From the NCBI GenBank assembly GCA_024276195.1, contig JAJRXR010000042.1, positions 124,001 to 188,000 on the forward strand: a stretch of DNA of 64,000 nucleotides. Direction: 5' to 3'. Positions 33,069-37,293 of this stretch are shown here, one piece after another (the stretch's first letter is position 1; each line of letters starts with the position of its first letter). Origin of the DNA: Planctomycetota bacterium (GTDB taxonomy: Bacteria > Planctomycetota > Phycisphaerae > Phycisphaerales > UBA1924). Position numbers and translations under genes: made by a program. A model generated the notes under the pieces. The model searched no databases. It was not told the origin of the DNA and was given only the letters and a program-made list of their open reading frames with translations.

Positions 33069-33523
33069 TCACTCTCTCCTCTTACGGTGCTCGCCAGTGT
33101 ACCTGGCGCGAAACCTTGCGCCGCCCAGACGCGGCTCCCCGGTTCTCAACCCGCATGCCCATCAAACCGGGTCCGCCAGAGTAGCGCTCGCAATGGACGG
33201 ATCGATGCGGATGCGAAGAGAAACACTCCCCGGCAAACATCTTCAACCTCTTGACATCTCCGCGTTCTTCGCGCCCCTCCGCGCACTCCGCATGCTCATC
33301 CCCCACAAAAACCACACCGCCCTACGCCTCGATCGCCGCGATCATCTCGTCCATGTCCTTGTTGATGCACTTGACCATCGTTCCCTTCATCAAAAACCCC
33401 AACGGCGCCATCAGCTTCGCCCCCTAGCCCATGCCTCAACTCCCCGTACCGCCCACCGCACCACGCGCCGGGCCACTATCCTCTGTTTCCCCGCCCAGCC
33501 TACCCGCACGAGACCCATCGATC
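33069..33523. other. 455-bp gap with one gene remnant
   Basis: Apart from the SRPBCC remnant at 33322-33423 I see no gene or strong signal. It separates the DUF2231 gene from the carboxylase gene; open frames that cross it lack ribosome sites. Confidence 0.5.
33322..33423 (-). pseudogene. C-terminal remnant of an SRPBCC/polyketide cyclase-like gene
   Basis: On the minus strand, 33 sense codons between two in-frame stops read GAKLMAPLGFLMKGTMVKCI then NKDMDEMIAAIEA. This matches the end of SRPBCC (START-like) domain proteins, where a hydrophobic helix is followed by N-K-D-L-x-x-L-x-x-x-x-E. The rest of the gene is missing upstream. It is probably a dead fragment left by deletion. Confidence 0.55.
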
Positions 33524-35395
33524 ATGCCCGACCCAAGCTCAAACCCGCTCCGCTCCACCACCGCCGCCTTCCTCGAAACCGAGGCGACTATCCGCCAGGG
33601 CGGCGGCCCCAAGGCCATCGGACGCCAGCACGCCAAAGCTCGCCTCACCGCCCGCGAGCGCATCGCCAAACTCATCGACGACGACGCCAGCTTCCAAGAG
33701 CTCGCCCTCTGGTCCGCCCACGGCATGTACGCCGAGCATGGCGGAGCCCCCGCCGCTGGCGTCGTCACCGGCGTCGCCCGCGTCCAAGGGCGCCCCCACA
33801 TGCTCATCGCCAACGACGCCACCGTCAAAGCCGGCGCCTTCTTCCCCATGACCTGCAAGAAAATCATCCGCGCCCAGACCATCGCCCGCATGGCCCGCCT
33901 CCCCCTCATCTACCTCGTCGATTCCGCCGGCGTCTTCCTCCCCATGCAAGAAGACGTCTTCCCCGACACCGACGACTTCGGCCGGATTTTCTTCCTGAAC
34001 TCGAAGATCAGCGCCGAGGGCATCCCCCAGATCGCCGCCATCATGGGCTACTGCGTCGCCGGCGGCGGCTACCTCCCCGTCCTCTGCGACACCCTCATCA
34101 TGACCGAAGGCTCTGGCCTCTACCTCGCAGGCCCGGCGCTCGTCAAAGCCGCCATAGGCCAGGACGTCACCGACGAAGAACTCGGCGGCGCCTCCATGCA
34201 CAGCTCCATCTCCGGCACCATCGACTTCAAAGAACCCGACGACGACGCCGCCATCGCCCGCGTCCGAAACCTCGTCGCAAAATACCCAAGCTCCTACGTC
34301 TCGTCGGATGCTTCGAGATTCTTCGATCAGTTCCGGGATGAGGCGCAGGACGACCTGACCGAGGCGCAGAAGATTCGGATCGAGTCCATTCTCCAAGACT
34401 CCAAGGGTCGATGTTGCCCCCGCGCCCCCTTCCGCGACCCCCAAGACATCTACTCCATCTTCACCGACGAGCCCGCCAAGCAGTACGACGTCAAGGACAT
34501 CCTCGCCTGCATCGTCGATTCCAGGGTAGATCGGCTCTCCGAGCCGATCCGTTCCCCCTCCGACACCGACTCAAAAAACCAACCCGCCCCCATCGGCTCG
34601 GAGAGCCGACCTGCGCGCATCGGCTCGGAGAGCCGATCTACCCTTGAGACCCTCGCCCCCGACCTCGACGAGTACAAACCCGACTACGGCGCCTCCCTCG
34701 TCTGCGCCTACGCCACCATCGCCGGGCGCCCCGTTGCCATCCTCGCCAACCAGGGCAAGCTCACACACCAATCCACACCCGGCGGCAAATCCGGCCCCTC
34801 CACCTCCGCCAACATGCCCCGCGTCATCTACGAAGAGTCCGCCAACAAGGCCGCCCGTTTCATCATGGACGCCAACCAGCGCAAGATCCCACTCATCTTC
34901 TTCCACGACACCACCGGCTTCATGGTCGGACGCGACTCCGAACAAGGCGGCATCATCCGCGCCGGCGCCAAAATGGTCAACGCCGTCTCCAACTCCGTCG
35001 TACCCAAAATCGTCGTCATCATCGGCGGGTCCTACGGCGCCGGAAACTACGCCATGTGCGGCCGCGCCTTTGACCAGTTCCTCTCCCTCGCATGGCCCTC
35101 CGCCAAGTGCTCCGTCATGGGCGCAAGCCAAGCCGCCGGCGTCCTCGCCACCATCGAGGAACGCTCACGAAAGCGAAAGGGCGAAGAGATCGACAAGACA
35201 ACCCACGACCAGATCCTTGCCGCCATCCGCGAGAGCTACAACGAGCAGCAAGACATCCGCCACGCCGCCAGCCGCGGCTGGATCGACCGCATCATCGAAC
35301 CCCACAACACCCGCCAAGAACTCATCGCCGCCCTCGACGCGGCCAGCGGATGGGACTACTCGCGGGAGTTCAAAACTGGTGTACTGCAGACATGA
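33524..35395 (+). CDS. Acyl-CoA carboxylase, carboxyltransferase (beta) subunit with an in-frame palindromic insert
   Basis: 623 residues from ATG 33524. The two crotonase-fold halves are clear: ARLTARERIAKLIDD and GVVTGVARVQGRPHMLIAND, then ASLVCAYATIAGRPVAILAN, FFHDTTGFMVGRD and VVIIGGSYGAGNYAMCGRAF. It is of the propionyl-/methylcrotonyl-CoA carboxylase type; TTGFMVG and GAGNYAMCGRA favour methylcrotonyl-CoA. Residues 334-374 come from an inserted palindromic element (34523-34644) between the halves, so this member is longer than usual. No biotin carboxylase subunit is in the window. Together with HMG-CoA lyase at 45.6 kb it fits leucine breakdown. The stop overlaps the next ATG (ATGA). 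Confidence 0.93.
   Translation: MPDPSSNPLRSTTAAFLETEATIRQGGGPKAIGRQHAKARLTARERIAKLIDDDASFQELALWSAHGMYAEHGGAPAAGVVTGVARVQGRPHMLIANDATVKAGAFFPMTCKKIIRAQTIARMARLPLIYLVDSAGVFLPMQEDVFPDTDDFGRIFFLNSKISAEGIPQIAAIMGYCVAGGGYLPVLCDTLIMTEGSGLYLAGPALVKAAIGQDVTDEELGGASMHSSISGTIDFKEPDDDAAIARVRNLVAKYPSSYVSSDASRFFDQFRDEAQDDLTEAQKIRIESILQDSKGRCCPRAPFRDPQDIYSIFTDEPAKQYDVKDILACIVDSRVDRLSEPIRSPSDTDSKNQPAPIGSESRPARIGSESRSTLETLAPDLDEYKPDYGASLVCAYATIAGRPVAILANQGKLTHQSTPGGKSGPSTSANMPRVIYEESANKAARFIMDANQRKIPLIFFHDTTGFMVGRDSEQGGIIRAGAKMVNAVSNSVVPKIVVIIGGSYGAGNYAMCGRAFDQFLSLAWPSAKCSVMGASQAAGVLATIEERSRKRKGEEIDKTTHDQILAAIRESYNEQQDIRHAASRGWIDRIIEPHNTRQELIAALDAASGWDYSREFKTGVLQT
34523..34644. repeat. Palindromic element inserted in frame within the carboxylase gene
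   Basis: The ends are perfect 26-bp inverted repeats (34523-34548 and 34619-34644), built on GGGTAGATCGGCTCTCCG. A further copy of ATCGGCTCGGAGAGCCGA lies at 34592-34609, and each such core is itself a hairpin (ATCGGCT-CGGAG-AGCCGAT). The element adds about 40 codons without stop or frameshift. Its peptide (SESR / LSEP repeats) does not resemble the family at this place. Confidence 0.9.
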
Positions 35396-37270: not shown

Positions 37271-37293
37271 GTGGCACGGGCGTCCCGCCCGTG
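37271..37293. repeat. Palindromic repeat family C (GTGGCACGGGCG hairpin)
   Basis: CACGGGCG (37275-37282) pairs with CGCCCGTG (37286-37293) across TCC, preceded by GTGG. It is read through in frame by the gene at 37178. Confidence 0.8.

Follow-up and report, generated by a model that had tools for sequence, protein, structure and literature searches.

A GTAG-type REP pair, probably translated, within a planctomycete carboxylase gene, and its likely mobiliser fused into leuS

A palindromic element within a carboxylase gene of a planctomycete is, with high probability, a REPIN tolerated as a translated loop of the enzyme, and its likely mobiliser is a RAYT (an HUH/Y1 transposase) that, elsewhere in this genome, sits between REPs of the same kind and is fused in frame into leuS. 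On this reading, a non-autonomous pair of GTAG REPs landed in the carboxylase linker that joins its two crotonase-fold halves. The RAYT belongs to a clade that, in this bacterial family, usually sits in frame in housekeeping genes, chiefly valS, leuS, and rdgB, where it would be produced as part of the enzyme.

The element lies in a window of 64,000 nucleotides (the whole stretch of DNA that was analysed: positions 124,001 to 188,000 of contig JAJRXR010000042.1, assembly GCA_024276195.1). An earlier note, made from the letters of the window, had described a coding palindromic element in the carboxylase gene, with a likeness in principle to the palindromic elements (RPEs) of Rickettsia. This much stands: the element is real, its arms, its copies, and its open frame being confirmed. 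The GTAG REP nature of the element and the transposase fused into leuS were missed. Features of the gene and the element are collected in Table 1.

Table 1. The carboxylase gene and the parts of its insert, in positions of the window
Feature	Position	Strand	Remark
Carboxyltransferase gene (acyl-/methylcrotonyl-CoA carboxylase beta-like) holding the element	33524..35395	+	alternative upstream ATG at 33431 possible
REP pair (REPIN-like) element	34523..34644	+	in frame; from arms, fold, and comparison with the nearest relative
Left REP	34524..34549	+	GTAG foot at 34526-34529, then hairpin ATCGGCTCTCCGAGCCGAT
Internal third REP copy	34592..34611	-	reverse orientation; degenerate foot, CTGC for CTAC
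Right REP, inverted	34618..34643	-	CTAC foot at 34638-34641
GTAG REP hairpin sequence			GTAGATCGGCTC

The two arms of the element are 26 nt each, inverted, and complementary at 25 of 26 positions, one base short of the perfect repeats first described. Each folds on itself as a hairpin around TCGGCTCTCCGAGCCGA, and GTAG stands close to the outer end of both. The third, partial copy reported inside the element is indeed there, as a copy of the core. A REP is a GTAG-type foot followed by an imperfect palindrome, and a REPIN two such units, inverted and at short spacing; the element has all of these and is a GTAG-type REP pair. Its folding energy is -70.4 kcal/mol, as against -35.5 (sd 3.6) in 200 shuffles. 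The short core alone is not rare, since at three mismatches it occurs 3 times in the window against 2.98 expected by chance. The full 26-nt arm, allowed up to three mismatches, is matched twice in the window, by the two arms themselves, and never in 100 shuffles. The shuffles, together with the copies across the genome, exclude a chance palindrome.

The host gene has its best PDB match in 3u9r, methylcrotonyl-CoA carboxylase beta, and its sole NCBIfam match scores under the cutoff of that family. The insert maps between the weakly aligned 3u9r residues 333 and 335, at the junction of the two chain halves, in agreement with the place between crotonase-fold halves that was originally proposed. 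The reading frame runs through the element without stop or shift, as had also been read. Between CIVDS and ETLAP, the linker has 41 residues in the window gene and 8 in the same-genus orthologue L147, a net gain of about 33 codons; an insertion it is, smaller than the 40 or so codons claimed. A search for orthologues matched 39 of 51 genomes; among the matches listed are 30 loci, and 28 of the 29 outside the window cover the place of the insert. Nothing like the insert is found in 26 of these 28, which bears out the suspicion that its residues are foreign to the protein family. The remaining two, L153 (PGSESRATQG) and L148 (DRLGGAGFQSANDAEAES), carry different REP-like residues at the same place, so the carboxylase linker looks like a repeated landing place.

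The core of the window element occurs in 29 exact copies at 13 places of the 3.04-Mb genome, and in no exact copy in the same-genus genomes G001, G002, and G003. The earlier note had named a lack of further copies as the outcome that would speak against a mobile element; the copies exist. Twelve of the 13 places were read (all except the one on C22), and eight of the twelve are intragenic, in the carboxylase gene, clpB, uvrA, serS, gltX, metG, carB, and leuS (host names from NCBIfam), so that aminoacyl-tRNA synthetases make up four of the eight hosts. The other places are intergenic, upstream of metG, or at the end of a gene. All eight intragenic copies are in frame and contain no stops. If frame were irrelevant, eight out of eight in frame would come about with a chance of about 1.5e-4, by arithmetic that leaves stops uncounted. 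Copies of the window REP family are thus inserted in frame in unrelated proteins, as RPEs are, and the likeness in principle to Rickettsia is upheld. No transposase is known to be linked to RPEs.

The genome also contains another REP family, GGCACGGGCGTCCCGCCCGT, with 58 sites at up to two mismatches, of which 30 were fetched, giving 25 clusters that were examined. Some of the clusters are in frame in asnS, purL, dusB, and carB, and others have no evident host (dusB and purL scored under cutoff on cut loci, and the part of dusB past the insert was assigned by eye). A copy of this family also sits in the window, at 37273-37292, and the same family flanks the valS RAYT described below. Several further places deserve mention. 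In L025 (3955-4140), three REP copies lie just 5' of the likely start of metG, in an open frame that may be translated. The carB genes of the source genome (G000) and of G027 (L046, L021) hold the window REP family at apparently the same place, and L041 and L052, valS-like by eye, hold it at a second synthetase place common to G027 and G024; both places look like recurrent REP landing sites. The gene beside the C57 place I take from its motifs to be folA-like.

In leuS of the source genome, two REPs of the window family, 613 bp apart from start to start, enclose a RAYT in the leuS frame. The result is one open frame of 1196 codons, whose product of 1196 aa exceeds the curated NCBIfam cutoffs both as LeuRS (935.6 vs 548.4 bits) and as RAYT (NF047646; 88.3 vs 80 bits). 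The RAYT is flanked by a 24-nt inverted repeat, GTAGATCGGCTCTCCGAGCCGATC, which is the same REP as that of the window element, and it is this RAYT that probably moves the REPs. No second leuS was found in G000 (assembly 91% complete), and the leuS insertion site is empty in the same-genus G001 and G002. The valS and rdgB genes of G000 each hold, in frame, a further RAYT of this clade with a REP pair of its own; these two RAYTs score 86.5 and 89.8 by NF047646 against the cutoff of 80, and the valS contig stops 45 codons past the RAYT, still in valS sequence. By the same cutoff, L091, L104, L105, and L193 are above and L118 (76.1), L120 (78.2), and L255 (68.5) below. Unlike NCBIfam, Pfam at E 1e-8 names no transposase domain in the leuS fusion. 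The sole PDB sequence match of the RAYT profile is TnpAREP of E. coli, 4er8, whose Y115 is presumably the catalytic tyrosine. G000 also has a distant, stand-alone RAYT (L060, 34 bits).

The fusion in leuS is one of many. In a survey of 164 genomes of the bacterial family, the strong clade was taken as all 74 RAYT matches of at least 120 bits, and 72 of the 74 lie in frame with an assigned host gene and do not form a gene of their own. They are spread over 60 of the 164 genomes, and their hosts are valS (32), rdgB (20), leuS (17, at two sites), and miaA, a dnaK-like gene, and a kbl-like gene (one each). The two exceptions are a contig edge (L131) and a run of N (L122). In 70 cases host sequence in the frame of the RAYT both precedes and follows it, 65 by motif and 5 by eye (L079, L142, L118, L090, L109); in L065 and L128 it is found upstream only, and their frames end at or soon past the RAYT. 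Hosts were named by motif patterns, and NCBIfam names the host in 8 of the 72 (L091, L104, L105, L141, L118, L142, L120, and L056, whose protein P0001 is the leuS fusion). From motifs, the host in L090 is presumably dnaK-like and that in L109 kbl/bioF-like. Host assignment set aside L057, L058, and L061, duplicates of loci of G000, and the distant L060. Matches below 100 bits lie mostly in frames of 160-390 codons, and no recognisable host gene surrounds the RAYT in the 11 of these examined (L133-L140, L143-L145). An rdgB-RAYT of this family is also present in L205 (RHKP01000029.1).

Most of the genomes surveyed are drafts, and assembly artefacts might be suspected in them, or chance palindromes. 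The probability of this is close to nil: the arm appears in none of the 100 shuffles, and the architecture recurs at 72 loci, including some in G110 and G135, each a single contig. As an account of the general pattern, artefact or chance is refuted.

The embedded RAYTs have the look of working transposases. The HUH histidines are kept in 73 of 73 and 72 of 73 RAYTs and the tyrosine in 71 of 72 in which it could be scored. In nine pairs, the dN/dS of embedded RAYTs is 0.09-0.17, indicating, at the level of sequence, purifying selection. Inverted repeats of at least 14 nt stand at the ends of 66 of 73 RAYT elements, as against 7 of 219 mismatched controls. The linkers between REPs and RAYT vary. 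Not one of 71 elements is antisense to its host, although the antisense frame is also open in 18. (L131 was left out of the residue and inverted-repeat counts, and L122, L128, and L131 out of the dN/dS and antisense sets.) It might be held that all these are ordinary intragenic REPs, selected for nothing but frame, and that the fused RAYTs are relics in decay that serve no purpose themselves. The variable linkers would fit such a view, as would the fact that intragenic GTAG REPs are already known, according to the available text of PMC3733652. Relics ought not to keep their catalytic residues under a low dN/dS, nor to avoid the antisense orientation where it is open to them, and an element nearly identical in two species (described below) argues for one that works. 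I consider the relic reading unlikely.

Are the inserts translated at all? RNA processing at the hairpins, or ribosomes that hop across them, might keep the inserts out of the finished enzyme, and there is something to be said for this. The window element folds into a very stable hairpin, and two REP inserts have stops. In valS of G002 (L091, 5116-5340), a second REP insert, of the GTGVPPG / GRDARAT type, contains two in-frame stops, and in leuS of G011 (L093), about 355 codons before TTRPDTIFGATYMV, tandem REPs have an in-frame stop between them; in both, the host frame resumes unshifted. Assembly errors or dying copies could account for these two small inserts, or they may hint that some inserts go untranslated. 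If inserts were regularly removed, however, frame and stops would be irrelevant, yet the eight intragenic copies of the window core and 72 of the 74 strong-clade RAYTs are all in frame. The low dN/dS points to RAYTs translated with their hosts, as does the scarcity of start codons: in 29 of the 72 embedded RAYTs, the stretch running from 40 codons ahead of the first codon of the RAYT domain to 10 codons past it contains no ATG. Nor did any Rfam family, intron or other, reach its gathering score when the window stretch and the RAYT loci L024, L141, L142, and L120 were scanned. With the in-frame rule against it and the two stop-bearing inserts for it, removal or hopping is kept as a weak rival, and a quite improbable one.

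The lack of start codons has a further consequence. The valS RAYT of G000 has neither ATG, GTG, nor TTG near the start of its domain, so that at least some of the RAYTs could hardly be made except within the host enzyme. Some ATG, GTG, or TTG is present near the start in 62 of the 72, 10 of them with an SD-like stretch, and where there is a start codon nearby a separate RAYT product is possible. I infer that the fusion of RAYT and host is made and that both parts work.

Embedded RAYTs are faithful to their sites, within limits. A RAYT tree clusters by host site: the four main states require only 7 changes, which suggests that sites are held long and changed rarely, and all ten host groups require 13, as against 41 when shuffled. 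The three copies at leuS site A, however, are scattered over the tree (3 changes, the same in every shuffle). The correlation of RAYT with host distances is moderate for valS (0.35, p 0.0025) and not clear for rdgB (0.15, p 0.08) or leuS (0.09, p 0.22), L128 being left out of this test; the signal may be blurred by the linkers and by sequence lying 5' of the start.

Movement is suggested by G110 and G112 (L120/L121), whose valS RAYTs are 99.8% identical, one base apart over 417 nt. From 1100 to 200 nt upstream, their valS genes are 69% identical, and near-identity starts at the left REP. The same valS site has no element in the same-genus G111 and G113. A near-identical RAYT in diverged valS genes, at a site empty in close relatives, suggests that the element was transferred recently, and to the same site. 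On the right, the flanks of G110 and G112 are identical at 96 of 96 bases. Co-transfer of flanking DNA with the element was considered and is unsupported, since the right flank of G111 is nearly as alike (94 of 96).

The recurrence of sites across genera, and the strong bias of hosts toward aminoacyl-tRNA synthetases and rdgB, might also suggest domestication, the host enzymes using the RAYT domain or the REP-coded loops themselves, in tRNA editing, for example, or in regulation. The patchy occupancy speaks against this: embedded RAYTs are in 60 of 164 genomes, 32 copies are in valS, and presence varies within genera. Domestication seems to me very improbable.

The preferred reading, that of REPs moved by a RAYT and tolerated by their hosts, has in its favour an association of the two across genomes, though a loose one. 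Among 9 genomes with a RAYT of the matching subclade, 7 have the exact window core, compared with 20 of the other 155 (Fisher p 4.5e-5, kinship not corrected). Six genomes have many cores and no RAYT of the matching subclade (G126, 52; G094, 47; G175, 31; G024, 19; G111, 12; G036, 8), the first three having RAYTs of other subclades only, and two (G178, G129) have a matching RAYT and no exact core. REP and RAYT are therefore not tightly linked, which counts against the reading.

In-frame residence is not confined to the family. Among 392 genomes of the phylum, 57 have a RAYT match at E 1e-25, and with up to ten candidates per genome scored, at least 89 matches fall outside the family, at least 22 of them in frames longer than 450 codons. 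Named genomes, when scanned, yielded 410 relatives; of the best 80, which were kept, 63 are in frames of at least 360 codons; the scan overlaps the family set (L176, for example, is G002:C9, both of 117363 bases). Hosts identified elsewhere by Pfam or NCBIfam are ileS (L193), alaS (L255, Verrucomicrobiales), priA (L252, Limisphaerales), purH (L211, L219), a DUF1156 protein (L212; L214, Desulfoferrobacter suflitae), and a type ISP enzyme (L215). In L212 (3331-6804), a single open frame encodes the DUF1156 protein together with a RAYT and a GIY-YIG domain, and the flanks recur by eye in L214, L225, L234, L246, and L251.

How much of this is new? The window element belongs to the known intragenic GTAG REPs. 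GTAG REPs inside genes, including uvrA and tRNA synthetases, were reported in PMC3733652, and as far as the available text of that paper goes, they share with the window REPs the GTAG foot and hairpin, the dimers of opposite orientation, the intragenic location, and the flanking of RAYT genes. That text reports no RAYT within the frame of another gene; here, the matching RAYT is fused into leuS. RAYTs lying between inverted REPs (REPtrons) were described in PMC2817692, whose available text presents them as open reading frames of their own, whereas those found here are in the frames of their hosts. The same text gives the usual copy number of REPs as above 100; the 29 cores of the source genome are dispersed as REPs are, though fewer. 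According to the available text of PMC6006769, a few unexpectedly long RAYT members were discarded as gene fusions or annotation errors. A literature search, extending to few subscription journals and not to bioRxiv, found no report of a RAYT or transposase within synthetase or housekeeping genes. As far as checked, then, the in-frame residence of the matching RAYT in leuS, and of a whole clade in housekeeping genes, is new for the REP-RAYT system.

Other systems offer partial parallels. RPEs, too, are palindromic inserts translated in frame in unrelated proteins (as the available text of PMC3733652 also has it, where the intragenic RPE-4 and RPE-6 are classed as CGTC repeats), though in a different phylum. 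Inteins and homing elements resemble embedded RAYTs in that they, too, occupy conserved genes in frame and at sites that recur, and spread to the same site in other species, as in inteins, is suggested here. Inteins carry a splicing domain and a homing endonuclease; the leuS fusion has a transposase instead. Pfam finds no splicing domain in P0001 at E 1e-8, and the intein was rejected on that ground. RAYTs share the Y1 HUH transposase superfamily with IS200/IS605 and IStrons, but the inserts, judging by their size, have no room for a TnpB in addition. Group I and group II introns and IStrons were rejected for want of an Rfam match at gathering score in the window stretch and four RAYT loci.

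I propose that such an element be viewed as a coding REPtron: a transposon that lives within essential enzymes as a domain that is translated and does not splice, and that has its own hairpin ends and no gene of its own, is expressed by its host, is protected because loss of frame kills the cell, spreads like an intein to the same site in other species, and seeds small coding hairpins elsewhere. A transposase lodged in an essential gene would be shielded from sloppy deletion as well as from frameshifts and stops. I lean toward this broader model by a little.

How coding palindromic elements spread, and how RAYTs persist for so long at low copy number, are open questions in the field. If the transposase that matches a REP family is itself translated inside leuS, the two questions are joined and both become testable. 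If the model is true, then ValRS, LeuRS, and like essential enzymes can bear a transposase domain of about 140 residues plus linkers, and surveys that drop gene fusions may overlook most members of such a RAYT clade.
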